Source of the DNA: an uncultured Oscillospiraceae bacterium
Lineage (GTDB): Bacteria; Bacillota; Clostridia; Oscillospirales; Oscillospiraceae
DNA length: 56,525 bases
Direction: 5' to 3'
Assembly: GCA_947599875.1 (NCBI GenBank)
Contig: CANQFV010000015.1
Coordinates: 1 to 56,525 of the forward strand
How positions within the stretch are numbered: the stretch's first letter is position 1; each line of letters begins with the position of its first letter. Below the pieces are notes generated by a model. The model did not search any database, had not been told where the DNA came from, and saw only the letters and a list, made by a program, of their open reading frames with translations. A program made the translations under genes and the position numbers. This document shows, piece after piece, positions 39,101-55,982 of the stretch.

Positions 39101-39304
39101 ATATTTTTTCCAAGGACATGTGCCTTGGAAAAAATCCCTCTTGCCGCGCAAGTGTGCGGCCCTCCGGGCCGTGCGCACAGCGCGGCAGCAGGGAATATGC
39201 CCGTGAATTCCGCAGAATTCATGGGCATATTCCCGCACGCATCTCTTTTGGCAGGAAAAGGCTGAGGGGTTCTCGTCAGAGAACCCCTCACGCCTTTTTC
39301 GCCA
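39101..39304 (-). repeat. Family A 3'-end element, copy 1 (after GH105 gene)
   Basis: It runs from six bases past the GH105 stop. In the direction of that gene: hairpin 1 at 39,304-39,250 (inner stem GGCGTGAGGGG/CCCCTCAGCC, loop TGAC), hairpin 2 at 39,234-39,191 (GAATATGCCC/GGGCATATTC around the conserved core GAATTCTGCGGAATTC), hairpin 3 at 39,186-39,143 (GCCGCG/CGCGGC) and hairpin 4 at 39,134-39,104 (CCAAGG/CCTTGG flanked by A6/T6), then ATATTGAATG. GGGGCGTTCTCCGTTGACCG follows and leads to the REP. Confidence 0.85.
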
Positions 39305-39310
39305 GTAACT

Positions 39311-40453
39311 TTACTCCTCGTCCAGCTCCCGGCTGAGCAGATGCTCCGTGTAGCACATGAGGAAGGGCGCCACACCCTTGGCGTCGTTCTCCACGATGGG
39401 CTCGGAGATATAATACTCGTAGGAGCCGTCCCGGCGGCGGTTATTCTCCGGGCCAAGGCCGGCCACCAGGCAGATGCCGCCCAGATTCAGCTTGCCGTCC
39501 CGCTCGGTGAGATACCGGTCGCAGATGGAGCGGAAGATGGCCTCGCCCCTGGGGCAGCAGCCGTACTCCAAGATCCCCAGACGTGCGCCCTTCAGGAAGA
39601 AGTAGGCCACCATCGCGCTGCCGGAGGTCTCCGGGTAATTCCCCTCCCGGCCCACCTGATTGGGCACCTGGTAGAGCATCCCGGTGTTGGTGTCGATATA
39701 GGGGATGAGATTCTGGGCCAGCTCCCGGGCGATGGCGATCATCTCGTTCTTAAAGTCGTCGTGGCCGGGGGCCAGGTAGCTGATCACATCCACCAGCGCC
39801 GCGGCGTACCAGCCCAGGGACCGGAGCCAGGGGTTCTTGGACTTACCGTCCTCCCCCGCCCAGAAGGCCTTGCCGCTGGCGTCATAGCCGTGCCGGTAAA
39901 GGCCCGTGTCGGGATCCAGCATCTTCTCATGCACGGTGCGGAACTGCCGGAGGATATCCTCATACCCCGCGCAGTTTTCAAACTCCGTGGTGTAGCGGGT
40001 GTAAAAGACCTGAGCCATATACAGCCCGTCCAGCCACACCTGGTTGGGGTAGATGGCCTTGTGCCAGAAATTCCCCTCGTGGGTGCGGGGCTGGCGGAGC
40101 AGCTGTCCGTGGAGGATCTCAATGGCCTTCCTGTACTTCTCCTTGCCGGTAGCGGCGTACAGGTCAAAGAGTACCCGCCCCTCGCAGATGTTGTCCAGGT
40201 TGTAATCCTCCTCGCTGTAGCCCAGCAGGGTGCCGTCGTCGTGGACATAGAAGTCGATGAAGTTGTCCACGAAGTCAAAATACCGCTTCTCCCCGGTGAT
40301 GTTGTACAGGTTGAGCAGGGAGATCATCATGCAGCCGTCGATATAGTTCCAGCCGTTGATCTTCCCCTCCTTGATCTTCTCGATGTTCCAAAGGGGCGTG
40401 CTGGGGGTGGAGTCCGCCATAACGCGCTCCACATAGCGTTCAATGGTGTTCAT
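39311..40453 (-). CDS. GH105 unsaturated rhamnogalacturonyl / glucuronyl hydrolase
   Basis: A 380-residue alpha6/alpha6-barrel enzyme of the YteR/RhiN type. It removes the unsaturated uronic acid from oligomers left by pectate or rhamnogalacturonan lyases. The catalytic Asp142 lies in YPNQVWLDGLYMA, equivalent to Asp143 of YteR. Other family regions are GYSEEDYNLDNICEGRVLFD and SLGWYAAALVDVISYLAPGH. There is no signal peptide, so it acts on imported oligomers. GGAGG precedes ATG 40453. It is the last gene of the pectin operon after kduI, and the family A element starts right behind its stop. Confidence 0.93.
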   Translation of the reverse strand: MNTIERYVERVMADSTPSTPLWNIEKIKEGKINGWNYIDGCMMISLLNLYNITGEKRYFDFVDNFIDFYVHDDGTLLGYSEEDYNLDNICEGRVLFDLYAATGKEKYRKAIEILHGQLLRQPRTHEGNFWHKAIYPNQVWLDGLYMAQVFYTRYTTEFENCAGYEDILRQFRTVHEKMLDPDTGLYRHGYDASGKAFWAGEDGKSKNPWLRSLGWYAAALVDVISYLAPGHDDFKNEMIAIARELAQNLIPYIDTNTGMLYQVPNQVGREGNYPETSGSAMVAYFFLKGARLGILEYGCCPRGEAIFRSICDRYLTERDGKLNLGGICLVAGLGPENNRRRDGSYEYYISEPIVENDAKGVAPFLMCYTEHLLSRELDEE

Positions 40454-40484
40454 ATAAAATCCTCCAAGCGTTCTTGCAAAACAA

Positions 40485-41327
40485 TTATTTCAGATTCTGG
40501 GTGGGGATCCCGTCCATGTCGTCAAAGTCCTGATTCTCGCCGCACATGCCCCAGATAAAGGTGTAGTTGGCGGTGCCCACGCCGGAGTGGATCGACCAGC
40601 TGGGGGAGATGACGGCCTCCTCATTGTGCATCACCAGGTGGCGGGTCTCCTGGGGCTGGCCCATCATGTGGAAGACGCACTGATCCGGGGCCACCTCGAA
40701 GTACATGTACACCTCCATGCGCCGCTCGTGGGTGTGACTGGGCATGGTGTTCCACACGTTGCCCGGCAGGAGGGCGGTCATGCCCATGCTCAGCTGGCAG
40801 CTCTCGCACACGGCGGGGTGGATGTACTGGCGCAGGATGCGCTCATTCACCGTTTCCTGGCTGCCCAGGTGGTTGTAGCGGGCCTTCTCCATCGGGATGA
40901 GGACGGTGGGGCAGGTGCGGTGGGCGGGGCTGGAATTCACATAGAACTTGGCGGGGTTGGCCTTGTCCTCGCTCTTAAAGACCAGCTCCTTGGTGCCCAT
41001 GCCCACATAGATGCCGTCCTTGGCGCCCACGCGGTATTCCGTGCCGTCCAGCACCATGACCCCGGGGCCGCCGATGTTGATGGCGCCCAGCTCCCGGCGC
41101 TCCAGGAAGTAGGGGGCCGCCAGCTCCTTAAAGGAGCCAAGTACCAGCTCCTCCTCCACCGGCATGATGCCGCCGGCGATGATCCTGTCCTGGTGGGAGT
41201 AGGTCAGGTTGATGGAGTCCGGCTCAAAGATGTGGGAGATGTGATAGTGCCGGCGCAGCTCCTGCGTGGTGTAGTGCTTGGAATCCTCCGGGTGATTGGC
41301 GTAACGCACGTCAAAATTGATGTTCAT
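40485..41327 (-). CDS. kduI: 5-dehydro-4-deoxy-D-glucuronate isomerase (KduI)
   Basis: A 280-residue cupin-fold zinc isomerase that converts 4-deoxy-L-threo-5-hexosulose uronate to 3-deoxy-D-glycero-2,5-hexodiulosonate, a central step of pectin catabolism. The zinc site is visible as PSHTHERRMEVYMYFE (about residue 190, His-x-His and Glu) and SWSIHSGVGTANYTFIWG (about residue 245, His). Full length and the start MNINFDVRYANHPEDSKHYT match the family. It lies between the TIM-barrel isomerase and GH105, whose product it uses. The ribosome site AGGAGG is close to ATG 41327. Confidence 0.95.
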   Translation of the reverse strand: MNINFDVRYANHPEDSKHYTTQELRRHYHISHIFEPDSINLTYSHQDRIIAGGIMPVEEELVLGSFKELAAPYFLERRELGAINIGGPGVMVLDGTEYRVGAKDGIYVGMGTKELVFKSEDKANPAKFYVNSSPAHRTCPTVLIPMEKARYNHLGSQETVNERILRQYIHPAVCESCQLSMGMTALLPGNVWNTMPSHTHERRMEVYMYFEVAPDQCVFHMMGQPQETRHLVMHNEEAVISPSWSIHSGVGTANYTFIWGMCGENQDFDDMDGIPTQNLK

Positions 41328-41381
41328 ATGCTTCCTCCTGTATATATGGTTATTTCAATGATTTCCTGTTGCTTGTGGGTC

Positions 41382-42239
41382 TTACACCCGCTCCCAAAGC
41401 TCCCGGATGGTCTCCACGGCCAGGGGCAGGTCGTCGCCGCAGGTCCCCTCCAAGACGAAGGTGGGGTGACTGACGGACGCCTTGATGCGGCGGATGATCT
41501 CCGCCTTGTCCAGATCTCCCTTGCCGAACCCCACCTGCTTGGGGGCCGAGCCGTCCTGGGTGAGGACGCAGTCCTTCATGTGGAAGAGCAGGATCCGGCC
41601 GCGGAAAAGCTCCAGCCCCCTGTCCAGAATGGACAGGTATTGGTGCTGATTCCCCGCGTCCATGTAGTTATAGAGGTCGAAGATGACCTTCACGTTGGGC
41701 CGGTTCATGCGCCGGATCACCTCATCCAGCACATCCGGATTCCAGCAGACGTGGCCGGCGGCGCCCTCCATCGCGATGTTCACCCCGTACCCGGCGGCGA
41801 TATCCGCCAGGGCGCCGAAGGTCTCCGCCACCAACTGATAGGACGCCTCCGTCCTGTTCTCCGGGTGATAGATCCACGGCTCGTCGTTGCGGGAGCCTGT
41901 CTCGCTCCCCACATATTCGCTCCCCAGCGCCCTGGCCGCGGCCAGGTAGTCGGCGAAGATCTGAAAACACCGCTTGGCCTTCTCCCTGTCGGAGTGGACG
42001 GGGTTGAAGTACGCCCCCACCAGGGGCACCGACAGTCCGCCCCGGCTCAGGCCCTGGCCGATCTCCCCGGCGCGCTCCGGCGTCATGGCCCCCGGCGCGT
42101 AGGGAATATCCCCGTAGGATTTGTAGCACACAAGCTGGATCCCGTCGATGTCCAGCTCCCGCGCTCTTTTGACGATCTCCTCCGTCCCCTTGACGCCCAG
42201 GTCGTGACCCCTGACGCACAGGCGGTATTCTTGGCGCAT
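41382..42239 (-). CDS. Sugar phosphate isomerase/epimerase family TIM-barrel protein
   Basis: A 285-residue xylose-isomerase-like TIM barrel. Metal-binding acids are visible: the Glu in NIAMEGAAGHVCWN, VIFDLYNYMDAGNQHQ (Asp and His pattern) and the His in RILLFHMKDCVL, with a last Glu in TFVLEGTCGDDL. It probably isomerises a keto-sugar acid of the same pathway, since it heads the kduI-GH105 operon, but the substrate cannot be read from sequence. A strong promoter lies 70-100 bases upstream and AAGGGGGAAG precedes ATG 42239. Confidence 0.82.
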   Translation of the reverse strand: MRQEYRLCVRGHDLGVKGTEEIVKRARELDIDGIQLVCYKSYGDIPYAPGAMTPERAGEIGQGLSRGGLSVPLVGAYFNPVHSDREKAKRCFQIFADYLAAARALGSEYVGSETGSRNDEPWIYHPENRTEASYQLVAETFGALADIAAGYGVNIAMEGAAGHVCWNPDVLDEVIRRMNRPNVKVIFDLYNYMDAGNQHQYLSILDRGLELFRGRILLFHMKDCVLTQDGSAPKQVGFGKGDLDKAEIIRRIKASVSHPTFVLEGTCGDDLPLAVETIRELWERV

Positions 42240-42310
42240 CCGTCTTCCCCCTTCGTGTTTGATTTTCCCGATTCTTCGGGAATTTGCACAAAACCCTTGG
42301 CAGTATTTTC

Positions 42311-42339
42311 ATTATACCGCGGCAAAGTATATAAATCAA
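42311..42339 (-). promoter_or_regulatory. Promoter of the pectin-fragment operon
   Basis: TTGATT (42,339-42,334) and TATAAT (42,316-42,311) with a 17-bp spacer sit upstream of the TIM-barrel gene. The AraC-family gene just upstream is the likely regulator. The region around 42,340-42,370 is AT-rich, but I see no clear AraC site. Confidence 0.8.
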
Positions 42340-42383
42340 TGTTTTTTTCGATATTTCATATATACAAAACGGAGCAGGGCGGC

Positions 42384-43145
42384 TCACTTCCCGGTCTGGG
42401 GCGACCGGCACCTCTTGGCGTAGGCGGAGGGGGAGCAGCCGAAGTGCTTGTTGAACACCCGGGAGAAGTACAGCGGGTCGGAGTACCCGCACATCTCCGC
42501 CACCTCGGCCACGGAGTAATCCCGGCTCCACATGGAGGACAGCATCCCCTCGGCCTTTTTCATGCGCAGGCCGGTCATATACTCCAGGGGCGTGACCCCC
42601 ACCTCTTTTTTAAACAGCTTCCGCAGATAATCGTAGTGGAAGGGCAGCTCCCGTATGGCCGCGTCCAGGGCGAAATCCGGCTGGGTGTAGCTGTGCATGA
42701 TGGCCACGCGGATCTGCTCCACAGGCTCGGAGTAGCCGCTGTTGGACAGGTAGACCATCAGGTAGCTGGAGATCAGATCCCCCAGTGCCTCCAGCACCAG
42801 CTCCCGCTTGGAGATGTCGGACTGGTAGTAGTACTTGGCCTCCCGGAAGGTAAAGGCAAACCGCCCCTCCGGGTCCTCCGCCAGGCGGAAAGCGCTTTTA
42901 GCGTGGAAGGCCGGGGCGTCCATGCGCATGTGAATGTTGGTGAAGCCGTCGGCGGAGGAGTTGGCGTGGCGGACGCGGGGCGGGATGACCACCACGTCCC
43001 CCCGGCGGTAGTTGATCATCGCGCCGTTTTCAAAGGCGAAGGCCCCCTCCCCGCCGGTGCAGTACACCAGCTCCCACTCGTCGTGGGTGTGCCACTGGAC
43101 GTCGTAGGTCTTGGAGTGTTCGCCCACATATAAAATAGAATTCAT
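42384..43145 (-). CDS. AraC family transcriptional regulator with cupin sensor
   Basis: A 253-residue regulator. The N-terminal cupin (residues 15-75: WHTHDEWELVYCTGGEGAFA, MINYRRGDVVVIPPRVRHAN) should bind a sugar. The C-terminal double helix-turn-helix has HYDYLRKLFKKEVGVTPLEY and the AraC signature VAEMCGYSDPLYFSRVFNKH. It overlaps the upstream esterase gene by 4 bases, so the two are co-transcribed, and the promoter of the catabolic operon is just downstream. It probably activates that operon in response to pectin-derived sugars. Confidence 0.9.
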   Translation of the reverse strand: MNSILYVGEHSKTYDVQWHTHDEWELVYCTGGEGAFAFENGAMINYRRGDVVVIPPRVRHANSSADGFTNIHMRMDAPAFHAKSAFRLAEDPEGRFAFTFREAKYYYQSDISKRELVLEALGDLISSYLMVYLSNSGYSEPVEQIRVAIMHSYTQPDFALDAAIRELPFHYDYLRKLFKKEVGVTPLEYMTGLRMKKAEGMLSSMWSRDYSVAEVAEMCGYSDPLYFSRVFNKHFGCSPSAYAKRCRSPQTGK

Positions 43146-43999
43146 CTCTCTCCCCCCTCGTCATGGATGACCAGGCCGCAGTCCCCGAAAAAGCGGATCA
43201 TGGCGCCGTCCCACTCCGGCACGTCCCGGCTCGTCTCCGGCACGTCGAAGGCGGGATACACCAGCTCGTCGGCCGTGGACAGGCCGTGGCGCCCGTGGGC
43301 GTAGATGTGCATGGCAAAGGGGACGCCCGCCTCCTCCAGCGCCTGGGCCAGGAGCAGGCTGTTGCGGCAGGGTACCGCCTCGTCGTCCCTGGTGTGCCAC
43401 AAAAAGACCGGGCACATGTCCGGCCGGACAAGGCGCTCCAGGCTCAGCCGGGCGCGCAGATCCCCGTCCCCGCCGGTGAGGTTCTCAAAGCTCCCGTCGT
43501 GCGTCCTGCCCCAGCTCACCGCCACGGGGTAGCAAAGCCCCAGGGCGTCGGGGCGGACGACCCGGGCGGGGGCGATGTCGCTGACCTCCGGGGCGTCAAA
43601 CATCATCCCCAGGGTCCCGCACAGGTGCCCCCCGGCGGAGAAGCCCACCGCCGCGATCATGCCGGAGTCCACGCCGTCCGCCTCCGCCGTGGCGCGGATC
43701 AGCCTCATGGCGGCCGCCGCCTCCCGCAGGGCCACGGGGAACCGGGCCGGGGCGCAGGTGTAGTTCAGCACATACGCCGCCCAGCCCCGGGCCGCGAACC
43801 GCAGGGCCACCGGCTCCGCCTCCCTGGGGGAACACCAGGCGTAGGCCCCGCCGGGGAGGATCAGCACCCCCGGGCGCAGCCGTTTCCGGACGCCCGTAAT
43901 GTCCGGCCCCTGGGGTACATACGCCGTGAGCCGGGCGCAGGCCCCCTCGGGCCTGTGTAAGCCGGTTTCTTCGTAAATATCAAGGGTTTTCACCATCAT
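43142..43999 (-). CDS. Alpha/beta hydrolase, probable carbohydrate acetyl esterase
   Basis: A 285-residue serine esterase of the BD-FAE/acetyl-esterase type. The oxyanion motif is in VLILPGGAYAWCS, the nucleophile in VGFSAGGHLCG (about residue 120), the acid in HTRDDEAVPC and the histidine in YAHGRHGLS (about residue 240). There is no signal peptide. In this operon it likely removes acetyl groups from imported rhamnogalacturonan or pectin oligomers; the substrate is inferred from context. It has its own promoter at 44,085-44,113 and is translationally coupled to the AraC gene. Confidence 0.85.
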   Translation of the reverse strand: MMVKTLDIYEETGLHRPEGACARLTAYVPQGPDITGVRKRLRPGVLILPGGAYAWCSPREAEPVALRFAARGWAAYVLNYTCAPARFPVALREAAAAMRLIRATAEADGVDSGMIAAVGFSAGGHLCGTLGMMFDAPEVSDIAPARVVRPDALGLCYPVAVSWGRTHDGSFENLTGGDGDLRARLSLERLVRPDMCPVFLWHTRDDEAVPCRNSLLLAQALEEAGVPFAMHIYAHGRHGLSTADELVYPAFDVPETSRDVPEWDGAMIRFFGDCGLVIHDEGGER

Positions 44000-44084
44000 T
44001 TCCTTGCGTCTCCCTTACCTTGGCGGCCTGAAATCCAGGCCCAATTTATCCATAGCGCTTTCCAAAATGTCCATTCGTAAGCCT

Positions 44085-44113
44085 ATAATACCCCACTTTT
44101 TCCCCACCGTCAA
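44085..44113 (-). promoter_or_regulatory. Promoter of esterase-araC
   Basis: TTGACG (44,113-44,108) and TATTAT (44,090-44,085) with a 17-bp spacer on the minus strand, about 90 bases before the esterase start. Confidence 0.75.
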
Positions 44114-44205
44114 GGGCGTATGGTCAAATCGGCCCATTTTTTCCTCCCCGGAGGCGGCTTTCCCCAGAAGCTGACAATTTTCTCCCAAAAAGGGCAAGGT
44201 TTCTG

Positions 44206-44234
44206 TTGACTTGCCCCGTCCCCCTGCATTAAAA
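44206..44234 (+). promoter_or_regulatory. Promoter of the SLH/L,D-transpeptidase gene
   Basis: TTGACT (44,206-44,211) and TTAAAA (44,229-44,234) with a 17-bp spacer. Transcription from here starts inside the longest open frame, which excludes a start at 44,211 and supports GTG 44,331. It is divergent from the esterase promoter. Confidence 0.7.
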
Positions 44235-44330
44235 TCAGAGGTAAGACCGCAGGCGCGGCAGCGCCCGGCGAAAAATGACTTGGCTCTTTCCCCGCAAGGG
44301 GTTTTTCACACGCTGAAAGGAGGACGACCT

Positions 44331-46727: not shown

Positions 46728-46748
46728 CCCCCGAAAGGGAAAAAAGGT

Positions 46749-47040
46749 GTCCGCCCTTTGGGCGGACGGGGTTATTTACTTTCCCCTCTTTGATTTCGTC
46801 AAAGAGGGGAAAGGTACAAAGGGGAGAAACCGACCAGGGGGGATTTCGATTTCCCCCCTGGACCCCCTTGAACCGACCAGTTAGGGGGCTGCGGCCCCCT
46901 ACTGGAGAAACCCCCGGGGAGCCCCCCGGGGGTTTTCTGGACGAATCGGCATCGAGCAGCCACCCGGTGGTGTGTCGCGCCCTGTGGACTGAGCCGGTGG
47001 GGGTCGGGGGCGGCTTCACGGAAACGACACCCTTCTCTGC
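46749..47040 (+). repeat. Family B multi-hairpin element, copy 1
   Basis: It begins 22 bases after the SLH gene stop. Hairpins in order: GTCCGCCC/GGGCGGAC (46,749-46,767), CTTTCCCCTCTTTGA/TCAAAGAGGGGAAAG (46,779-46,813), CCAGGGGGGA/TCCCCCCTGG with loop TTTCGATT (46,835-46,862), CCAGTTAGGGGGC/GCCCCCTACTGG (46,879-46,907) and a CCCCCGGGG/CCCCGGGGG hairpin. GGACGAATCGGC and GACTGAG follow. Two other copies lie at 50,890 and, inverted, 56,275. Confidence 0.8.
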
Positions 47041-47046
47041 CTTTTG

Positions 47047-47130
47047 AGGAGGTGGGACAAAGGGGACGGTTTCTTTGTACCACCAGTGCGCACACTGGTG
47101 TGACTAAAGAACCGTCCCCGTGTAACACCG
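47047..47130. repeat. GGGGACGGTT palindrome (REP-like)
   Basis: AGGGGACGGTTTCTTTGTAC faces GACTAAAGAACCGTCCCCGT around CACCAGTGCGCACACTGGTG. It matches the copy at 38,866 read in the other direction. It is preceded by GAGGAGGTGGGACA, as in the other islands. Confidence 0.8.
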
Positions 47131-47199
47131 GATTCCCGGGGACGCTTGACGAACCCTTCCCCGTCCCCGTGAGGCAATGGAGATCCTCAATCATCGCAA

Positions 47200-47315
47200 C
47201 ACGGGCCGCCGTGGGCGGCGGCCCCTACGGCAAATTATAAAGTTTTCTATCTTAACGCAACCGCTCTGTCACCAAACCCACCCGGGCCGATGAGGTCATC
47301 GGCCCCTACAGGGGG
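47200..47315. repeat. Family C paired GGGCCG palindromes, copy 1
   Basis: A GGGCCGCC-GTG-GGCGGCGGCCC palindrome, a conserved spacer with AAAGTTTTCTATCTTAACGC, and GGGCCGATGA-GG-TCATCGGCCCC-TACA. It is nearly identical to 55,637-55,751. These GGGGCCGA-type palindromes ending in CCTACA are common intergenic repeats in Clostridia. Confidence 0.8.
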
Positions 47316-47362
47316 ACTCTTACAGACACCAGGCGACCCCCGCCCCGCGCCCCCCCAATTTC

Positions 47363-47584
47363 AATATTTTTTGCGGGGCTTTGCCTCGCAAAAAATCCCT
47401 CTTGCCGCGCAAGTGTCCAGTCCGCAGACTGGTCGCGCAGCGCGGCAGCAGGGAACCGTTTTTGAATTCCGCAGAATTCAAAAGCGGTTCCCGCACGCAT
47501 CCCCTTGGGATTGAAAGCCCAAGGGGCTTTCAACCCAGCTCTCGTCCCCCTTGGCAGGGAAAGGCCTTTAGGCCTTTCCCGCCA
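47363..47584 (-). repeat. Family A 3'-end element, copy 2 (overlaps cysS end)
   Basis: Hairpin 1 (47,584-47,553) is short, GGCGGGAAAGGCC/GGCCTTTCCCTGCC, and contains the cysS stop codon. A TTGAAAGCCC/GGGGCTTTCAA hairpin follows, then hairpin 2 at 47,492-47,451 (GAACCG/CGGTTC arms around the same GAATTC core), hairpin 3 at 47,446-47,404 (arms CAGTCTGCGGACTGG in place of copy 1's GGGCCCGGAGGGCC) and hairpin 4 at 47,395-47,367 (GCGAGGC/GCGGGGC within A/T runs). Stems differ from copy 1 but stay paired. Confidence 0.85.
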
Positions 47585-49028
47585 GTCTCCATCTGACCCC
47601 GCCGGGCAGATCGGTAATCTGCACTCCCCGGCGGTTCAGCTCCTGCCGGATGCTGTCGGCCAGGGCAAAATCCTTCTCCTTCTTGGCCTGGGCGCGGCGG
47701 ATGACCAGCGCGTCGATCTCCGGGTCGCCCTCGCCGTCCACGGTGATCCCGCCGGTGTGGGAGGCACTCTCCCTGGCCCGGGCGTCCTCCGCCCTCCTGG
47801 CTGCGGCCTTCTCCCTGAGACTCAGCCCCAACACCCGGTCAAGCTCCGCCAGCACCGCCAGCTTCGTGGCGTCGTTGGCCTGGAGCTTCAGCGCGTCGTA
47901 CAGCGCCGTCACCCCCAGGGACGTGTTCAGATCCCCGCCCACGGCCCGGATGAACTTCTCCCGCTGCTGTGCCACCGTCTCCGGATCCACCGGGCCGTCC
48001 TGGGGATCCAGCCCCGCGATCCTGGCGATCAGCTTCCCGTAGGCCCCCTGGGCGTTGTCCAGATTCTCCCAGCTGAACACCAGCGCCTTCCGGTAGTGGC
48101 TCTGGAGGCAGAAGAAGCGGTAGGCCAGGGGGTCGTACCCCTTTTCCTCCAGCAGGGAGACGGTGAGGAACTCCCCCTTGGACTTGGACATCTTCCCGTC
48201 ACTGGTGTTTAGGTGATGCACATGGAACCAGCACCCGCACCAGGGGTGCCCCAGGAAGCTCTCGGACTGGGCGATCTCGTTTGTGTGGTGGGGGAAGGCG
48301 TTGTCGATGCCGCCGCAGTGGAGATCCAGATACTCCCCGTTGTACTTCAGGGAGATGGCGGAGCATTCGATGTGCCACCCGGGGTACCCTACGCCCCAGG
48401 GGGAGTCCCACTTCAGGGCCTGATCCTCAAACTTCGACTTGGTGAACCAGAGGACGAAGTCGTTCTTATTCCGCTTGTTCCGATCCTCCTCCACGCCCTC
48501 CCGGACGCCCACCTGGAGATCCTCCTCGTCGTGGTCGAAGAAGATGTGGTACCGCTCCAGCCTGGAGGTGTCAAAATACACGTTCCCCCCGGCGATATAG
48601 GCGTACCCCTTGTCCAGCAGTCCCTCTATCATGGCGATAAATTCCGGGATCAGCCCCGTGGCGGGCTGTACCACATCCGGCCGCTTGATGTTCAGCTTTT
48701 GGCAGTCGGCAAAGAAGGCGTCGGTGTAGAACTGGGCGATCTCCATCACCGTCTTGTGTTCCCGGCGGGCGCCCTTGAGCATCTTGTCCTCGCCCTCGTC
48801 GTTGTCGCCGGACAGGTGTCCCACGTCCGTGATATTCATCACCCGGTTCACATCGTACCCCTGGAACCGGAGGAATTTCTCCAGCACATCCTCCATGATG
48901 TAGCTGCGCAGATTGCCGATGTGGGCGAAGTGATACACCGTGGGGCCGCAGGTGTACATCTGCACCTTGCCGGGGGTGTGGGTCTTGAACTCCTCTTTTT
49001 TATGTGTGGCGGAATTGTACAGGTACAT
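47568..49028 (-). CDS. cysS: Cysteinyl-tRNA synthetase
   Basis: A 486-residue class I synthetase. The HIGH motif is FAHIGNLR (about residue 34) and KMSKS is DGKMSKSKGEFL (about 270). Zinc ligands are Cys27 in MYTCGPTVYH, a Cys in HIECSA, and His/Glu in HHTNEIAQSE. The anticodon-binding C-terminus is complete through GVRWR. The last residues LAGKA and the stop come from hairpin 1 of a family A repeat, so the repeat forms the gene end. It follows cysE by six bases and is under the Cys T-box. Confidence 0.96.
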   Translation of the reverse strand: MYLYNSATHKKEEFKTHTPGKVQMYTCGPTVYHFAHIGNLRSYIMEDVLEKFLRFQGYDVNRVMNITDVGHLSGDNDEGEDKMLKGARREHKTVMEIAQFYTDAFFADCQKLNIKRPDVVQPATGLIPEFIAMIEGLLDKGYAYIAGGNVYFDTSRLERYHIFFDHDEEDLQVGVREGVEEDRNKRNKNDFVLWFTKSKFEDQALKWDSPWGVGYPGWHIECSAISLKYNGEYLDLHCGGIDNAFPHHTNEIAQSESFLGHPWCGCWFHVHHLNTSDGKMSKSKGEFLTVSLLEEKGYDPLAYRFFCLQSHYRKALVFSWENLDNAQGAYGKLIARIAGLDPQDGPVDPETVAQQREKFIRAVGGDLNTSLGVTALYDALKLQANDATKLAVLAELDRVLGLSLREKAAARRAEDARARESASHTGGITVDGEGDPEIDALVIRRAQAKKEKDFALADSIRQELNRRGVQITDLPGGVRWRLAGKA

Positions 49029-49034
49029 GGTGGT

Positions 49035-49682
49035 CTATTCCTCTCCTTTTTGAGATTTCAGCATTTGTGTCAGCTCGTCAACTCTGGCTCTCAGGGCGCA
49101 AAGCTCCGCCTTTACGGGGTCGGTGACGCTGACCTGATCCACGTTGTCGGCGTAGGGCACCCGCTCCCCGGCGATCCGCACCACCCGGGCGGGCACGCCC
49201 ACGGCGGTGGAATCCGGCGGCACGGCGCTGAGGACAACGGCCCCCGCGGCCACCCGGGAGTTGTCCCCCACGGTGAACGGCCCCAGGAGCTTGGCCCCTG
49301 CCCCGATCAGGACGTTGTTGCCCACGGTGGGGTGCCGCTTGCCATGCTCCTTCCCCGTGCCGCCCAGGGTGACGCCCTGGTAGAGCAGCACGTCGTCCCC
49401 GATGACGGCCGTCTCCCCGATGACGATGCCGGAGCCGTGGTCGATCACCAGTCTGCGGCCGATAGTGGCCCCGGGGTGGATCTCGATCCCCGTCCGCCGC
49501 TTGGCGTGTTCGGAGATCATCCTGGCCAGCAGGGTGTGGCCCCGGGTCCACAAAAAATGCGCCCTTCTGTACGCCCGCTCCGCCCTGGGGCCGGGGTAGA
49601 CCATCAGGATCTCAAAGGCCGACCTGGCCGCCGGATCCCTGGCCTTGTACGCGTTTACCGTCTCGCGTGTTCGCTCAAACAT
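49035..49682 (-). CDS. cysE: Serine O-acetyltransferase
   Basis: A 215-residue hexapeptide-repeat acetyltransferase that makes O-acetylserine for cysteine synthesis. The left-handed beta helix is seen in IEIHPGATIGRRLVIDHGSG, IGETAVIGDDVLLYQGVTLG and GTGKEHGKRHPTVGNNVLIG. Catalytic His residues lie in DHGSG and in KRHPTVG. The N-terminus is short, as in Firmicute enzymes. The C-terminal 30 residues form a helix (KAELCALRARVDELTQMLKS). It is the first gene behind the Cys T-box and is co-transcribed with cysS, which couples cysteine supply to its charging. Confidence 0.95.
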   Translation of the reverse strand: MFERTRETVNAYKARDPAARSAFEILMVYPGPRAERAYRRAHFLWTRGHTLLARMISEHAKRRTGIEIHPGATIGRRLVIDHGSGIVIGETAVIGDDVLLYQGVTLGGTGKEHGKRHPTVGNNVLIGAGAKLLGPFTVGDNSRVAAGAVVLSAVPPDSTAVGVPARVVRIAGERVPYADNVDQVSVTDPVKAELCALRARVDELTQMLKSQKGEE

Positions 49683-49716
49683 ATTCTTAAAACTTCCTGT
49701 CCTTTCCGGGAGAAAA

Positions 49717-50035
49717 TGAAAAAGCGCCCTCTATGGGTCCACCCCATAGGAGGCGCTCTTGCGCGGTTCCACTCCCGTTTATCCCTTGCCGGCGCTTCAC
49801 GCGCATACCCAGTGAAAAGGATCCGCTCACGGCGGCCCTGGCCGCCCGGCGCCTTCTGATCCGTATGCGTATCACCGGCTCCGGCCTTAACGCGGCCGCC
49901 ACGGAGGGCCGTTTCCTGCCCTCCCGCTCCCGGGCGCACTTCACGCCGGTTCCGTCAGGCGCGTTTTCAGCTTCCCCGCGCCCTCTCTGGGACTTCCCCC
50001 ACGCTACTCTTCCCGTTCATCGCGGTACTTCATTG
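49717..50035 (-). promoter_or_regulatory. T-box leader, specifier TGC (Cys)
   Basis: On the minus strand the leader starts near 50,035 and contains a stem I region with AAGAGTAGCGTGG and the specifier loop GTGAAG-TGC-GCC; the TGC codon is 49,938-49,936. The T-box sequence AGTGGAACCGCGC lies at 49,773-49,761. The terminator AGCGCC...GGCGCT plus T-run is at 49,757-49,717, followed by cysE. Uncharged tRNA-Cys should favour the antiterminator and raise cysE-cysS expression. Confidence 0.93.
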
Positions 50036-50080
50036 TATGCACAGTGTATCAGACAGCCGCCCAATCGTCAAGAGAAATTT

Positions 50081-50620
50081 TCACAGATCTCCCTTGACCA
50101 GCACGGCCCCGTTTTTGGCAAAATACTCCACCCCGGACACAACGGTGGTCACCAGGATCACGATCCAGACCAGAGTGTTGACGGTGAAGGAGCCGAAGAG
50201 CCGGACGGAGGCCAGCGGCGTCATCATCACGCAAAGGCCCACCATCGTGCAGGCGGTCTTGATCTTCCCGCTCCAGCCGGCGGCCATGACAACGCCGTTG
50301 GACGCCGCCACCATCCGCAGCCCGGATACAGCCAGCTCCCGGGCGATGACCACCATGCACACCCAGGCGGGCATGGTCCCCTGCTCCACGAAGATGACCA
50401 TCGCGGAGATGACCAGCAGCTTGTCCGCCAGGGGGTCCATAAACTTCCCGAAATCCGTCACCAGCCCCTTGGCCCTGGCGATCTTTCCGTCTGCCAGATC
50501 CGTGAGGGACGCGATGATAAAGATGGCCAGCGCCACCCACTTGTTCCAGAGCAGCAGCACCGCCATAAAGACGGGAACAAGGATCATCCGCAGGACTGTC
50601 AGTTTGTTGGGTAAATTCAT
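50081..50620 (-). CDS. pgsA: CDP-diacylglycerol-glycerol-3-phosphate 3-phosphatidyltransferase
   Basis: A 179-residue membrane enzyme that makes phosphatidylglycerol phosphate. The CDP-alcohol phosphatidyltransferase motif is complete: DLADGKIARAKGLVTDFGKF, then MDPLADK, which gives the DG..AR...G...D...D pattern (about residues 40-66). Several membrane helices follow. The start at ATG 50620 has GGAG at good spacing; the frame is open upstream, but that part is Arg-rich and lacks a ribosome site. Its own promoter is at 50,730-50,758. Confidence 0.95.
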   Translation of the reverse strand: MNLPNKLTVLRMILVPVFMAVLLLWNKWVALAIFIIASLTDLADGKIARAKGLVTDFGKFMDPLADKLLVISAMVIFVEQGTMPAWVCMVVIARELAVSGLRMVAASNGVVMAAGWSGKIKTACTMVGLCVMMTPLASVRLFGSFTVNTLVWIVILVTTVVSGVEYFAKNGAVLVKGDL

Positions 50621-50729
50621 AAGGTTCTCCTTTCCTCTACGGCCTCTTTTGCCTCTCTCGCGTAAGTACCATCGAAGTGCGGCCGCCGCAAAATCCACCG
50701 CCGTAAGCAACCTGTTCTTCTTTCCTTAC

Positions 50730-50758
50730 ATTATACTTACTTCACTCAGATTTGTAAA
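50730..50758 (-). promoter_or_regulatory. pgsA promoter
   Basis: TTTACA (50,758-50,753) and TATAAT (50,735-50,730) with a 17-bp spacer on the minus strand, about 110 bases before the pgsA start. Confidence 0.78.
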
Positions 50759-50889
50759 GCGCAATCTTGCGTTTGTCAGCGCCTCGGAGTCTTTTTTGCC
50801 GCAGTCCGGGCGGGGGCCGGGGCATTCCCGCAGGGAAAGGAGTCCGCCTGAAAGGCGGAGGGGGAGGGGGTTCCCGTAGGGAATAAGGT

Positions 50890-51170
50890 GTCCGCCCGCA
50901 GGGCGGACGGGGGATGTTACTTTCTCCTCTTTTGTGTTGACAAAAGAGGAGAAAGTAACAAAGAGGAGAAAAGCAACCAGGGGAGGGATTTCGATTTTCC
51001 CTCCCCTGGACCCCACCTTTTAAAAACGACCAGTTAGGGGGCTGCGGCCCCCCTACTGGAGACACCCCCGGGGAGCTGCCCGGGGCTTGTTGGACGAATC
51101 GGTGTTTTGCAGCCACATGGCGGTGCGTCGCGTCCTTGGGACTGAGTTTTTTGGAAATCGGGGGCGGTTT
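50890..51170 (+). repeat. Family B multi-hairpin element, copy 2
   Basis: The same order as copy 1: GTCCGCCC/GGGCGGAC (50,890-50,908), GTTACTTTCTCCTCTTTTGT paired with its complement (50,916-50,959), CCAGGGGAGGGA/TCCCTCCCCTGG around TTTCGATT (50,977-51,009), CCAGTTAGGGGGC/GCCCCCCTACTGG (51,030-51,059), a CCCCGGGG/CCCGGGG hairpin and GGACGAATCGG. Stem changes in hairpins 2 and 3 are compensated. Here it lies behind the pgsA promoter, not behind a plus-strand gene. Confidence 0.82.
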
Positions 51171-51173
51171 TCG

Positions 51174-51312
51174 GAGGTGGGACAGCGGGGACGGTTTCTT
51201 TGACTGAGGAGGTGGGAAGTTCCCCCGTAAAAGGCGGGACTGAGGGACGGTTTTTTTGTACCACCGCAGCGAAGCGGAGGTGTGACAAAAGAACCGTCCC
51301 TCTGTAACGCCG
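51174..51312. repeat. GGGACGGTT palindromes (REP-like), double unit
   Basis: CGGGGACGGTTTCTTTGACT is followed by GAGGAGGTGGGAAGTTCCCC and a second palindrome, GAGGGACGGTTTTTTTGTAC facing GACAAAAGAACCGTCCCTC around CACCGCAGCGAAGCGGAGGTG. It leads into the family A element at 51,361, as at 38,866 and 55,398. Confidence 0.78.
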
Positions 51313-51360
51313 GGTAAAGACCTCCGAACAACGAAACACCCCCCGTCCCGCACCCCTCAT

Positions 51361-51567
51361 TCAATATTTTTTCCAAGGACATGTGCCTTGGAAAAAATCC
51401 CTTATGCCGCGCAAGTGTGCGGCCCTCCGGGCCGTGCGCGCAGCGCGGCAGCAGGGAATATGCCCATGAATTCCGCAGAATTCATGGGCATATTCCCGCA
51501 CGTCCCCCCCTTGGCAGAAAAAGGATTTCGGGTTCTCATCAGAGAACCCGAAATCCTTTTTCGCCAG
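51361..51567 (-). repeat. Family A 3'-end element, copy 3 (after gph)
   Basis: It starts one base past the gph stop. Hairpin 1 (51,567-51,513) has inner stem GGATTTCGGG/CCCGAAATCC with loop TGAT. Hairpin 2 (51,497-51,454) is GAATATGCCC/GGGCATATTC around the GAATTC core, hairpin 3 is 51,449-51,406 and hairpin 4 is 51,397-51,367 (CCAAGG/CCTTGG). Hairpins 2-4 are almost identical to copy 1, while hairpin 1 differs with compensated pairs. Confidence 0.85.
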
Positions 51568-51568
51568 C

Positions 51569-52213
51569 TTATACCAGCTTCAGCACATCCCCCGGGCTAC
51601 CGGCCAGGGCCTTGGCCCCCAGGGAGCGCAGGTACTCCGGGGAGCGAAAGCCCCAGCACACGCTGACGCAGTCGATCCCCGCCGCGGCGGCGGTTTTCAG
51701 ATCCACCTCGGAATCCCCCACATAGACCGTCTCATAGGGCTGGCTCCACAGCTCCCGCATGGCGGCGCGGACTGTGTCCGGGGAGGGCTTGCGGGCGATG
51801 CCCGGGCGCTCGCCGATGGCCACGGAGACATACGCCCCGAAGAATTGGCGCACAAGGGCGCGGACGTTATCGTCGGGCTTGTTGGAGACAACAGCCAGCT
51901 TATACTCCTTGGCCGTCAGGGCGCGCAGTAGCTCCACCACCCCGGGGTACGGGGCGGTCTTGATGGCGTTGTGCTGCTGATACCAGTCCACATACTCGGC
52001 CAAAATGCCGTCAAACCCGGGTGTGGCCGCCCCGTCGGGGAGGGCGCGCTCCAGGAGCTTCCCGGAACCGTTGCCCACAAAGGCCCGGATCTCGTCTATA
52101 GAGCGGGGCGGGTAGCCGTACTTTTCAAGGATGTGGTTCACACTGTCCCGGATGTCCTCTAAGGTGTTGAGCAGCGTGCCGTCCAGGTCAAAAATAACGG
52201 TGGTGTATCTCAT
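51569..52213 (-). CDS. gph: HAD family phosphatase, phosphoglycolate phosphatase-like
   Basis: A 214-residue HAD hydrolase. Motif I is VIFDLDGTLLNT (Asp nucleophile at residue 9), motif II AVVSNKP, motif III Lys in ARKPSPDT and motif IV VYVGDSEVDLKTA. The helical cap between motifs I and II is of the PGP/Gph size. The substrate may be phosphoglycolate or another small phosphate; sequence alone does not decide. ATG 52213 overlaps the preceding gene stop by 4 bases. It is the last gene of a three-gene operon and is followed directly by a family A element. Confidence 0.87.
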   Translation of the reverse strand: MRYTTVIFDLDGTLLNTLEDIRDSVNHILEKYGYPPRSIDEIRAFVGNGSGKLLERALPDGAATPGFDGILAEYVDWYQQHNAIKTAPYPGVVELLRALTAKEYKLAVVSNKPDDNVRALVRQFFGAYVSVAIGERPGIARKPSPDTVRAAMRELWSQPYETVYVGDSEVDLKTAAAAGIDCVSVCWGFRSPEYLRSLGAKALAGSPGDVLKLV

Positions 52214-52455
52214 CCGACGATGTCGATCCCCCAATCGGAGACGATCTTGTTCAGAAGGCGTGCCAGGGCCACGGTGCCCTCCTTGGTGATCAGGACGCTG
52301 GCCACCTCGTCGGCCACCTGGGCGGACACGTCGGTGAGCGCCCCCTGCTTCATGGAGAAGTTGTGTTCCGTGTAGATGTGGGCGAAGGACAGGGCCACCT
52401 CGGACTGATTCTTGTTGTGGGTGATATTGAAGGTGTTGGCAAATACCGGCTTCAT
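52210..52455 (-). CDS. Conserved protein of unknown function (81 aa)
   Basis: Starts MKPVFANTFNITHNKNQSEV and continues ALSFAHIYTEHNFSMKQGAL, DVSAQVADEVASVLITKEGT. A short soluble beta/alpha protein. Very similar-looking small proteins occur in gut Clostridia, but I know no function. It overlaps gph by 4 bases and the TSCPD gene by one base, so it is translated with them. No metal or nucleotide motif is visible. Confidence 0.75.
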   Translation of the reverse strand: MKPVFANTFNITHNKNQSEVALSFAHIYTEHNFSMKQGALTDVSAQVADEVASVLITKEGTVALARLLNKIVSDWGIDIVG

Positions 52456-52715
52456 CAGGCGCCCGCCTCCTCCCGGAGGGCCTCCTCAAGGGCGATGGCG
52501 ATCTGATCGGGGCAGGAGGTGCCGCGCATACCGCACTGCGTCCCCTTCAGCCGCGGGATCACGTCCTCGGCCCGCTGGCCCCGGAGAAGGGCGCAGATGC
52601 CCTTCAGGTTGCCGTTGCAGCCGCCCTCCACCGTGATATTCTGGATCACGCCGTCTTCAAGAACAATGTCATACCGGCGCGAACACACGCCGTGGGGAAT
52701 AAAAACCTTTTCCAT
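52455..52715 (-). CDS. TSCPD domain protein (TIGR03905 type)
   Basis: An 86-residue protein with the TSCPD motif in MRGTSCPDQIAIALEEAL, plus FIPHGVCSRRYDIVLEDGVI and VEGGCNGNLKGICALLRGQR. This small domain also occurs at the end of some class II ribonucleotide reductases, where its Cys residues may bind metal or act in redox; the free-standing form has no firm role. ATG 52715 follows AAGGAAG; the longer open frame upstream overlaps the promoter and is rejected. First gene of the operon with the 81-residue gene and gph. Confidence 0.85.
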   Translation of the reverse strand: MEKVFIPHGVCSRRYDIVLEDGVIQNITVEGGCNGNLKGICALLRGQRAEDVIPRLKGTQCGMRGTSCPDQIAIALEEALREEAGA

Positions 52716-52773
52716 AGTGCGTCTTCCTTTCTGTGAGAGCTTGTCTCCCCCGGGCCTTGGGGGGAACAAGCCC

Positions 52774-52802
52774 ATTATAACGCCGTTTCCCGATTTTCGC
52801 AA
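52774..52802 (-). promoter_or_regulatory. Promoter of the TSCPD-gph operon
   Basis: TTGCGA (52,802-52,797) and TATAAT (52,779-52,774) with a 17-bp spacer on the minus strand. It is divergent from spoIIP. Confidence 0.8.
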
Positions 52803-52864
52803 CATAGTTTGGACTTTTTGCGCATAAGCTCCCCTATGGAATCGTACAGGGAGGGGGAGCGGCG

Positions 52865-54067
52865 TTGTACAGGGTCGGCCAAAGGTCGGTGGGACGGCTT
52901 GCGTGGCTCGTCAAAAGACTTGGTGTGGTGGTGTGCGGGTGTCTCTTGCTGCGGGCCGCCGCGGGGCTGGTGGAGGGGGGCATCGTCCTGCCGGAGAGAC
53001 TGGGGACGGCGGTGCTGGCCCTGGAGCTTCCCGGGGGCGGGGAGGCTGTCCTTCCCGAGGCGGGGGACCCGGCGCAGGAGGCCCAGCCCCCTGAGGAGGA
53101 CACGGGGGATGCCTCCCCCGCCCCCGACGGGGAGGAGGGCCTGTCCCCCATCGTCCCGGGAGGGACGCAGATCCCCGGGGAGCCCCAGGGCGGGGGCGCG
53201 TCGGATGGGGACGCCGCCCCGCTGCAGGAGGGGGACGACTCCGAGGACGCCGATCCCCCCGTTTCCCCGGAGCCTGAGGCGGCGGAGCGGGACGCCATCG
53301 GCACCACCATAACCGGCAAGGGCGGCGGGTACACCGCGGCGGGGGACGGGATCTACATCAAGAACAAGACCACCTATGACATCGACGTGGAGTCGTATCT
53401 TCAAAGGCCCCTGGACTTCTCGGTGGAGGCGGGGGACGCGGTGCTGATCATCCATACCCACTCCTCCGAGGCCTACAACCCCACGCCGGAGGACGCCTAT
53501 GTGGCCTCCGACCCCTCCCGGACGGAGGATCCCGCCCACAACGTGATCCGGGTGGGGGACGAGCTGGAGCAAGTGCTGACGCAGCGGGGGATCAAGGTGT
53601 ACCACAACCGGGGACTGTACGACTACCCCAGCTACACCGGCTCCTATGACAGGGCCTTGGCGGCCATCAAGGAGGAGCTGGCGGCCCACCCGGAGATCAA
53701 GGCGGTGATCGACCTGCACCGGGACGCCCTGGAGGGGGACGGGGTGCTGTACAAGACCGTGGCCGACGTGGGGCCGGAGCCGTCCGCCCAGGTGATGATC
53801 CTGTGCGGGACGAATTTCTCCGGACTCAAGCACCCCGACTGGCAGGAGAATATGGGTTTCGCCGTAAAGCTCCAGGCGGCTATGGCGGAGAAATACCCCA
53901 CCCTGGCAAGGCCCATGAAGGTCTCGGAGTACCGCTACAACCAGCACGCCACCCCGGGTTCGCTGATCCTGGAGGTGGGCACCAACGGGAACACCCTGCG
54001 GGAGGCCCTGACGGCGGTGCGGTATTTCGGGGAGTGTATGGCGGACGTCCTCACGCACCAGAGCTGA
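52865..54067 (+). CDS. spoIIP: Stage II sporulation protein P
   Basis: A 400-residue sporulation amidase/endopeptidase that thins septal peptidoglycan during engulfment. An N-terminal membrane segment (about residues 14-36) precedes an acidic Pro/Gly-rich linker (55-145). The catalytic domain has LIIHTHSSEAYNP (His197, His199, Glu202), VIDLHRDALEG and SLILEVGTNGN, the SpoIIP/amidase zinc pattern. The start is TTG 52865, supported by AGGGAGGGGGAG upstream; no ATG is close. SpoIIP normally works with SpoIID and SpoIIM in the mother cell; the spoIIQ-like gene follows. Confidence 0.92.
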   Translation: MYRVGQRSVGRLAWLVKRLGVVVCGCLLLRAAAGLVEGGIVLPERLGTAVLALELPGGGEAVLPEAGDPAQEAQPPEEDTGDASPAPDGEEGLSPIVPGGTQIPGEPQGGGASDGDAAPLQEGDDSEDADPPVSPEPEAAERDAIGTTITGKGGGYTAAGDGIYIKNKTTYDIDVESYLQRPLDFSVEAGDAVLIIHTHSSEAYNPTPEDAYVASDPSRTEDPAHNVIRVGDELEQVLTQRGIKVYHNRGLYDYPSYTGSYDRALAAIKEELAAHPEIKAVIDLHRDALEGDGVLYKTVADVGPEPSAQVMILCGTNFSGLKHPDWQENMGFAVKLQAAMAEKYPTLARPMKVSEYRYNQHATPGSLILEVGTNGNTLREALTAVRYFGECMADVLTHQS

Positions 54068-54177
54068 GCCGGGGCGGAAATTTTCGGGAAAAACGTGTAT
54101 AATCCCCAAAAGCCGGGGAAATAATAGCTTCCGTAAGAAAAACGCGGCGGACAGCCGCGGATTACGGAGGACGACCC

Positions 54178-55008
54178 ATGCGCGAGAGGAAAGGTTTTTC
54201 AACGCGTGTTGAGGAGTTCCTGAGCGGAAAGGGCTTTTACATAGTCCTTTTCGTGTGCGTCGCCATTATCGGAGTTTCGGCGTGGCTGCTGCTGTTTTCA
54301 CAGCACTCCCCCCTGGCTTCCGGCGGCGAGGGGGACTATCTTGACGTGATGGGGGATGTGGACGACCCCGCCGGCGACGATAAGACCGGCAAAACGGACA
54401 CCCAGACCCAGGAGCCGGAGCATCAGGTCCCGGCGCCCAGTCAGAACACACTGACGCCCAACCAGCCGGAGGGGGAGGACCGGGACGCCGTCACCGTCCA
54501 GCCCAAGCCCCAGGAGCAGGACAAGCCGGACAAACCGGATGAGCCGGTGACGCCGGAGGCGGATCCGGACGAGGGAAAGGTCACGGACGTGAAGGACATC
54601 ACCTTCATCTGGCCGCTGAACGGCGAGGTGACGATGGCCTACTCCCCCACGGCGCTGATCTATGACAAGACGATGGGGGACTGGCGCGTCCACAAGGGCA
54701 TCGACCTGGCGGCGAGGCTGGGGACAAAGGTGCTGTGCTGTGCCAACGGCACGGTGACTAAGGTGGAGGAGGACAGCCGCTACGGCACGGTGGTGGAGAT
54801 CGACCACGGCGCGGGACTTGTGTCCACCTACGCAAACCTTGCGGGGACGCCCACCGTGAAGGTGGGGGACGCCGTGACGGGAGGCTCCGTCATCGGCTCC
54901 GTGGGCTCCACCTCCCTCTATGAGACGGGGGACGACGCCCACCTGCATTTCGCCCTCACCCTGAACGGGGAGAGCGTGGACCCGTCCAAGTATCTTCCCA
55001 AAAAGTGA
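54178..55008 (+). CDS. SpoIIQ-like M23 peptidase
   Basis: A 276-residue protein. One membrane helix (about 20-42) is followed by an acidic Pro/Gln/Glu linker (45-140) and a LytM domain. His172 and Asp176 in WRVHKGIDLAA and the His255-x-His257 pair in DDAHLHFALT are all present, so, unlike Bacillus SpoIIQ, the zinc site looks intact, as in clostridial SpoIIQ. Its position 110 bases after spoIIP supports a role in the engulfment channel with SpoIIIAH. TACGGAGGACGACCC precedes ATG 54178. The family A element begins on the base after its stop codon. Confidence 0.85.
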   Translation: MRERKGFSTRVEEFLSGKGFYIVLFVCVAIIGVSAWLLLFSQHSPLASGGEGDYLDVMGDVDDPAGDDKTGKTDTQTQEPEHQVPAPSQNTLTPNQPEGEDRDAVTVQPKPQEQDKPDKPDEPVTPEADPDEGKVTDVKDITFIWPLNGEVTMAYSPTALIYDKTMGDWRVHKGIDLAARLGTKVLCCANGTVTKVEEDSRYGTVVEIDHGAGLVSTYANLAGTPTVKVGDAVTGGSVIGSVGSTSLYETGDDAHLHFALTLNGESVDPSKYLPKK

Positions 55009-55345
55009 CTGGCGGAAAAGGATTAAGGGTTCTCTGACGAGAACCCTTAATCCTTTTCCTGCCAAGGGGGACGGAGGCTGGCTTGAAAGGCCGCAGGGGT
55101 TTAGGTTGGCTTGAAAAGCCACGGGGGCCTTCTGGCGAGGGCGGTTTTCCGCGCCTCTCCCACCCTGGCGGCAACCCCTGCGGCCTTTCAATGCCAAGGG
55201 GATGCGTGCGGAAACGCCCCATCGAATTCTGCGGAATTCGATGGGGCGTTTCCTGCTGCCGCGCTGTGCGACCAGTCTGCGGACTGGACACTTGCGCGGC
55301 AAGAGGGATTTTTTCCGACGTACATGCCGCCGGAAAAAATATTTG
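55009..55345 (+). repeat. Family A 3'-end element, copy 4 (after spoIIQ-like gene)
   Basis: Hairpin 1 (55,011-55,063) has inner stem GGATTAAGGG/CCCTTAATCC with loop TGAC. An enlarged hairpin follows: TTGAAAGGCCGCAGGGGTT at 55,083 pairs with AACCCCTGCGGCCTTTCAA at 55,172-55,190. Hairpin 2 is 55,210-55,253 (GAAACGCCCC/GGGGCGTTTC around GAATTCTGCGGAATTC), hairpin 3 is 55,258-55,300 and hairpin 4 is 55,309-55,339 (CCGACG/CGCCGG). It ends in ATATTTGAATTG, then GGGGCGTTCTCCGTTGACCG. Confidence 0.85.
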
Positions 55346-55945: not shown

Positions 55946-55982
55946 TATTGAATGGATGGTAACGCTCTTTTTCCGTTCCTTT

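Follow-up and report, generated by a model that had tools for sequence, protein, structure and literature searches.

A repeated multi-hairpin element at gene ends of an uncultured Oscillospiraceae bacterium: a probable IS1182-type miniature element with a structured core

What kind of element can stand, with the same series of hairpins, behind four unrelated genes of one bacterium? The question was raised by a DNA stretch of 56,525 nucleotides from an uncultured Oscillospiraceae bacterium (assembly GCA_947599875.1, contig CANQFV010000015.1; hereafter the window), in which an initial annotation had noticed four copies of a repeat, family A, and had proposed either a selected RNA structure or a palindrome-copying mobile element. 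Read away from the gene, the element consists of hairpin 1 (HP1, of the CTGGCG/CTGTCG type), HP2, HP3 and HP4; HP1 is modular, HP2 is a near-perfect palindrome with a TGCG loop, and the stem of HP4 contains A6/T6. We compared family A between the window's genome (G000, 2.73 Mb in 89 contigs, its copies being called own copies), other genomes of the genus and more distant relatives; labels with G and L denote the genomes and loci compared. Family A is mobile, since stem-loop targets are duplicated, ends resemble those of IS1182, and orthologous sites are found both empty and filled. Family A is probably a non-autonomous IS1182-type miniature element, which targets stem-loops at gene ends and contains a structured module, probably an RNA of the bottom strand, the strand opposite to the gene.

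Spread, insertion sites and the link to IS1182

Copies of family A in G000, roughly one every 12 kb, are more numerous than chance allows: a core pattern of 23 bases, with at most three mismatches tolerated, matched 225 places (120 forward, 105 reverse) and the reversed pattern none. Using a 207-base copy as query, about 41 distinct main places were found in this genome (40 candidates scored). Plain DNA searches detected the element in 17 of 25 genus genomes (G000 and 16 of the 24 others) and in none of 15 genomes of other genera. The search of family genomes with a model of the element, as suggested in the initial annotation, was carried out with model R1 and gave matches in at least 95 of 200 same-family genomes and in at least 62 of 106 genera; these are lower bounds, with 16 candidates per genome scored under strict filters. 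A class-wide sample yielded matches in 3 of 391 genomes (8 candidates per genome scored): G000, one same-family genome and, with a weak score of 36.8 bits, a genome of another family. The latter match (L120, 1501-1607, minus strand) contains HP3- and HP4-like hairpins. Exact patterns matched at least eight stretches in public records, and among those listed all are metagenome-assembled genomes of 'uncultured Oscillospiraceae bacterium' named Lapin, which probably come from rabbit. The distant set used below comprises the 29 copies that nhmmer detected in 56 distant loci with a threshold of 35 bits.

No known RNA family covers the element in the window or in the 20 distant loci scanned. Rfam release 15 reported only tRNA for the window at gathering scores, and for the distant loci, at E values up to 1, the only match near the element was Xoo8 with 22.7 bits (gathering score 90; L106, 1474-1508). 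An origin from a plasmid was rejected, no plasmid match being found, as was an origin from a phage: searches of phage collections gave one and three records with partial matches only, these being unannotated 'Bacteriophage sp.' scaffolds from faecal samples (one examined is marked UNVERIFIED), and two strict patterns had no match in IMG/VR.

Evidence for movement comes from the flanks. Sufficient flanking sequence was present for 66 of 69 genus copies, and in 33 of the 66 the left and right flanks were alike above the 99th percentile of mismatched flanks, a threshold passed by about 1% of the latter. Inspection by eye of the 25 best flank matches showed a stem-loop of 19-35 bp on both sides in 24 (e.g., GAACGGTGCCGTGGGTTTGCCCACGGCACCGTTT), and the flanking repeats in the genus are mostly terminator-like stem-loops. 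The exception is the genus copy in L190: its two flanks form a near-identical direct repeat of 68 bp, which resembles coding sequence and not a terminator. Searched with loose patterns, the 66 genus copies had the right end in 27 cases, the left end CTGTC in 43 and both ends in 23. The sole own copy with a right end (L261, about 1448) has an HP2-like palindrome as left flank, as if inserted into the HP2 of another element.

These ends point to a particular family of insertion sequences (IS). Both ends could be located for 4 IS from 30 IS loci, and all four have CAGnnTGTCAAAAAA-type ends and a stem-loop on both sides; two transposases of the genus scored 381 and 385 bits on the NCBIfam IS1182 model (cut-off 270). 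The transposase domain PF13751 is encoded in 10 of the 25 genus genomes (nine over the cut-off). All ten belong to the 17 genomes that bear the element, and the eight element-free ones have no match, a co-occurrence that may be confounded by genome reduction. A core carried inside the autonomous IS1182 was rejected, the strong match over the 30 IS loci (L063) lying outside the IS. At L066 (1958-2056, minus strand), a weak core match (30.9 bits) extends from the right edge of an autonomous IS1182 into the flank and may be what is left of an element next to the IS. The idea that a pair of inverted copies moves as a composite was likewise discarded: inverted pairs exist, and most of 100 listed places (of the 225) are unpaired.

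Orthologous gene ends were then compared in the sister species. Reading about 330 nt behind cysS in 23 loci, the element was found in three (G000, G011 and G005). G020 lacks the element at cysS and shares with G005 a terminator whose loop contains the stop codon, and G018 shares the next gene with G011 and has no element. At gph, where about 290 nt were read in 23 loci, four are occupied: G000 has the window's copy; in G018, AGGGGAGGGTTTGGAACCCTCCCCT stands on both sides of a full element; in G019 the element lies in the opposite orientation and adjoins a terminator shared with the convergent gene; and G012 has remnants of HP4 and HP1 and an IS1182-like end beside a terminator. In G002, G013 and G010 the neighbour gene of G019 is present and the element is absent. 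We read the two sites as the outcome of insertions that took place repeatedly and independently at gene-end stem-loops. The sister species are distant, with cysS identities of at most 85% among full-length matches.

Transposition of this kind is already known. IS1272 and TnSha1 from Staphylococcus, members of the IS1182 family, move by 'inverted-repeat-replacing' transposition (PMC4923244, PMC5678879); IS1272 is reported to use stem-loops as insertion sites, part of the stem-loop being lost and no target duplication arising, and five of seven target sites in one study were confirmed terminators (PMC4923244). Family A resembles both in its stem-loop targets, which there show no primary-sequence specificity, and in the IS1182-family transposase of its genus relatives; the loss of the stem-loop without duplication would be matched by the window's species. 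Unlike these autonomous IS, family A is non-coding, with a full form of about 235 bp in relatives and up to about 225 copies, has a conserved internal fold, and in relatives the stem-loop is duplicated. Since own copies for the most part lack IS1182-like terminal inverted repeats, the copies of the window are classed as derivatives of an IS1182-type miniature inverted-repeat transposable element (MITE) and not full members. By analogy, the missing duplication and right end in the window's species would fit the mode described for IS1272.

A conserved fold and its preferred strand

The initial annotation had described stems that change between copies with pairing kept, and this proved true on a larger set. 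Alignment A2 contains 39 of 41 listed copies, 27 from the genus and 12 own, every third own copy having been kept. RNAalifold predicted 46 pairs, 29 of which have changes on both sides; 96.7% of the paired cells were pairing compared with 80.9% after shuffling and 33-54% after sliding, and double changes occurred in 290 cells compared with 87 in shuffled and at most 63 in slid alignments. A second set of 39 rows covers 37 genomes, 10 of the genus (11 rows) and 27 of 22 other genera (28 rows), with the best match per genome and, in either group, one second copy; in these rows, whose alignment to the model biases them towards the modelled structure, 95.5% of the cells are paired and 504 cells have double changes, with 148 in the shuffled control. 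Pairing thus exceeds the shuffled and slid controls, and base pairing in the core, most of all in HP3 and HP4, survives sequence change. As judged by eye, many distant members have a further hairpin beyond HP4, followed by CTCTGCGAGGC-like sequence. A UNCG tetraloop and a kissing loop were considered as candidates for HP2 and HP4; group II-C introns and integron attC sites were considered as well.

The fold is not equally stable on both strands. When 70 distinct cores were folded, the strand opposite to the gene had the lower energy in all 28 genus copies and in 32 of 42 own copies, the gene strand being lower in the other 10. The minimum free energy structures of these cores contain 207 G.U pairs if the opposite strand is folded, compared with 40 for the gene strand. 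Strongly folding control windows (578) were nearly evenly divided, 297 versus 271. The preference resides in HP3 and HP4: taken together, they fold better on the opposite strand in all 69 genus copies, in 93 versus 14 of 110 own copies and in 27 versus 2 of 29 distant copies. Specific wobble pairs recur among the model-fitted rows: in HP3, all 39 rows have U.G at pair 55-97, 28 have G.U at pair 56-96 and 23 have U.G at pair 53-99, and in HP4 21 rows have G.U at pair 12-24. Since the same positions form A.C mismatches on the gene strand, selection on the opposite strand as a single strand is the simplest account, and that single strand is most likely RNA. For the module itself, a reading of HP3-HP4 as a bottom-strand RNA is tentative, its chances falling a little short of even.

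How such an RNA could be transcribed was examined from the sequence. Promoter-like sites on the bottom strand were found in 27 of 68 genus copies compared with 11 in shuffled sequences, and the overall signal is weak. Where the right-hand gene could be called, it is encoded on the opposite strand at 52 of 94 own, 31 of 55 genus and 14 of 19 distant copies, so that a convergent gene could transcribe the bottom strand at about half of the sites.

HP2 behaves differently from HP3 and HP4. The opposite strand was favoured over the gene strand in 32 versus 24 genus, 25 versus 82 own and 8 versus 17 distant copies. Among 73 even-length copies in G000 (78 of 112 copies were parsed), 36 distinct outer stems were found, 66 copies had at most one mismatch, and there was no antisense excess of wobble pairs. 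A DNA-level process that copies palindromes is possible for HP2, and perhaps for HP1, because HP2 is a near-perfect palindrome without bias to the opposite strand. The proposal of a palindrome-copying mobile element has held as regards mobility, and palindrome copying stays a possibility for these one or two hairpins.

Gene ends, mechanism and competing explanations

The majority of copies follow a gene and have HP1 on the side that faces it. Among codon-scored genes, taking the nearest within 500 nt on the HP1 side, the gene runs towards the element in 90 versus 13 cases for own copies (112), 48 versus 11 for genus copies (69) and 22 versus 4 for distant copies (29); sites between divergent genes are restricted to 3, 1 and 1 copies of these sets, respectively. 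The initial annotation had suggested tabulating the distance to stop codons. For open reading frames (ORFs) with at least 100 open codons, a CTGG[CG]/CTGTC motif that starts a hairpin lies 0-12 nt after the stop codon in 51 of 107 own copies, compared with 32 of 1371 control motifs elsewhere in the loci and 3 of 28 control motifs that start a hairpin. Without the hairpin condition the count was 55 of 101, including at least two matches in the HP1 loop (L026 and one in L150); of the remaining 46 copies, 13 have the stop codon within an HP1-like stretch. The random position and orientation which the initial annotation expected of a plain repeat are thus not seen, both being non-random.

We propose the following course of events. 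Gene-end stem-loops, chiefly terminator-like ones, would be the insertion target, and an IS1182-type transposase would move family A in trans. In relatives the insertion would copy the host stem-loop, resulting in a duplication on both sides; in the window's species it may replace the stem-loop, HP1 behind the stop codon then serving as the new terminator. HP3-HP4 would be conserved cargo whose opposite strand is most likely read as the element's own structured RNA or, at about half of the sites, forms part of the 3' untranslated region (UTR) of a convergent gene. Candidate roles of the RNA are transposition, stability and tolerance by the host. A stricter version, in which movement would need the bottom-strand RNA of HP3-HP4 and an RNA-assisted DDE transposition would lead the IS1182-type enzyme to terminators with the RNA acting in trans or in cis, appears very unlikely.

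Several results weigh against this proposal. Own flanks are alike in 3 of 107 copies and, with a longer right window, in none of 100; in other genera the flank test gave 3 of 29 copies at first and between 1 and 6 of 29 depending on the offset, with repeated stem-loops legible by eye in several more. The right end is present in one and the left CTGTC in 12 of 110 own copies, and both ends are present in 2 of 29 copies from other genera. PF13751 has no match in G000, seven of the 17 genomes that bear the element lack IS1182, and the IS in the 30 IS loci do not carry the core. The strand bias of HP3 and HP4 is weaker in the window's species, and for HP2 the gene strand is the favoured one in own copies. 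No clear bottom-strand promoter was detected, the promoter-like sites amounting to 4 of 111 own copies versus 11 in shuffled sequences and to 4 of 29 other copies versus 4. A terminator scan called no HP1 in copies 3 and 4 of the window (the copies scanned), perhaps missing it as its T-run sits inside the stem; one terminator-like match was obtained at 55291-55303, with a mean of 1.0 in shuffled sequences.

Family A could instead serve the host, as a structured 3' UTR module which stabilises or terminates host mRNAs. Such a role would suit the tight stop spacing in the window's species, the gene orientation and the stem covariation, but the target stem-loops are duplicated, few orthologous gene ends are occupied and HP3 and HP4 favour the strand opposite to the gene. 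Because of the latter two points the functional host 3'-end RNA envisaged in the initial annotation is weakened, and we regard it as improbable; what stands of the selected RNA structure is the pairing above controls. A plain palindromic DNA repeat of the repetitive extragenic palindromic (REP)/BIME kind, its arms matched by template switching between inverted repeats and without RNA function, would agree with the many outer stems of HP2, their near-perfect pairing and the lack of a wobble excess, and G000 does contain REP-like GGGACGG repeats and one Y1_Tnp gene. Template switching gives Watson-Crick palindromes, and the fixed U.G pairs of HP3 and HP4 and the unequal number of G.U pairs on the two strands are left unexplained by such a repeat, which we judge quite unlikely.

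The Y1_Tnp gene (L165, REP-associated tyrosine transposase-like, Pfam above cut-off) bears on a further alternative, in which such a transposase spread own copies as pieces of a mosaic repeat, and the IS1182-like form seen in relatives represents no more than their ancestor. Besides this gene and the lack of PF13751 in G000, it is favoured by GGGACGG-type sequence that was seen by eye to the right of many of 40 own copies. Yet the protein scores 54.7 on the REP_Tyr_transpos model, below the cut-off of 80, the neighbouring repeat is absent at L007, L011 and one copy in L017, and no common right boundary was worked out; we consider this spread unlikely. An IS1182-type miniature element with a structured core remains the reading that we prefer.

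Known repeats and the surroundings of the window's copies

Family A also resembles prokaryotic MITEs with structured transcripts, which are short, non-coding and intergenic, have terminal inverted repeats and stable folds, and are nested with other repeats (PMC10969869); the pneumococcal repeats BOX, RUP and SPRITE served for comparison (PMC3049150). From such MITEs, as described there, it differs by its gene-end orientation, its stem-loop target, its modular first hairpin and a strand-biased covarying core found in 22 further genera among the aligned rows. REP, BIME and REPIN repeats, which are linked to REP-associated tyrosine transposases (RAYT), are high-copy, palindromic and intergenic and have mosaic neighbours. 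Family A shares these properties and is distinguished by its much greater length, by the IS1182-like ends in relatives and by stem-loop duplication. In the literature searched, by title and the start of the abstract, no description of this element was found, nor of the structured strand-biased core, the family-wide range or the copy number. If the preferred reading is true, family A would be a mobile element, present throughout a family of gut bacteria, which rewrites gene 3' ends while keeping a structured strand-biased core. Two questions could then be tested: by what route IS1182 transposition into stem-loops copies terminators or replaces them, and for what reason so small an element keeps an RNA-like fold with fixed U.G pairs across many genera.

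In the window, the places of the four copies and their orientation away from the gene agree with the initial annotation, as does the order HP1-HP2-HP3-HP4, which is common to all four. Copy 1 (39102-39305, minus strand) lies 3' of a Glyco_hydro_88 (GH105-like) gene (39311-40453, minus strand), with HP1 at 39248-39305, HP2 at 39191-39234, HP3 at 39143-39185 and HP4 at 39103-39135; its HP4 and HP3 on the strand opposite to the gene (39103-39185, plus strand) have the orientation that in the family holds G.U and not A.C. Copy 2 (47365-47585, minus strand) is situated at the end of cysS (47568-49028, minus strand) and has two HP1-type hairpins (47501-47585), HP2 (47451-47492), HP3 (47404-47445) and HP4 (47366-47396). 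Copy 3 (51361-51567, minus strand) is located 3' of a HAD/gph-like gene (51569-52489, minus strand; HP1 51511-51567, HP2 51454-51497, HP3 51406-51448, HP4 51366-51398), and copy 4 (55009-55345, plus strand) 3' of an M23 peptidase gene (54178-55008, plus strand; HP1 55009-55065, HP2 55210-55253, HP3 55259-55300, HP4 55308-55340). The closeness of the start to the stop codon was confirmed: the first CTGGCG is 5 nt after the stop in copy 1, 1 nt in copy 3 and 0 nt in copy 4, and in copy 2 the loop of the outer HP1 contains the cysS stop codon TAA.

Copies 2 and 4 contain an extra HP1-like hairpin; in copy 4 this second HP1-type hairpin and further inserted sequence were located by eye at about 55078-55202. 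An HP1-type module of about 100 nt (CTGGCTTGAAAGGCC...GGCCTTTCAATGCCA) with inserted sequence stands between gene end and core in the window (55066-55205) and in L022, L028 and L258, and its recurrence suggests nested insertion into hairpin loops. To the right of many family A copies lies a second repeat family (GGGGACGGTTCTTTTGTC and its inverted form), found in the window at 47034-47162, 51159-51344, 55479-55608 and 55971-56105. Near copy 1 lies a 40-bp exact direct repeat (38628-38667 and 38720-38759), in which part of a tRNA-Arg(CCT) gene (38591-38667, minus strand) is found again at a distance of 52 bp. The window also contains two very long ORFs on the minus strand, at 10222-19578 (3118 aa) and at 24557-32701 (2714 aa), the latter overlapping internal direct repeats at 26061-31000.

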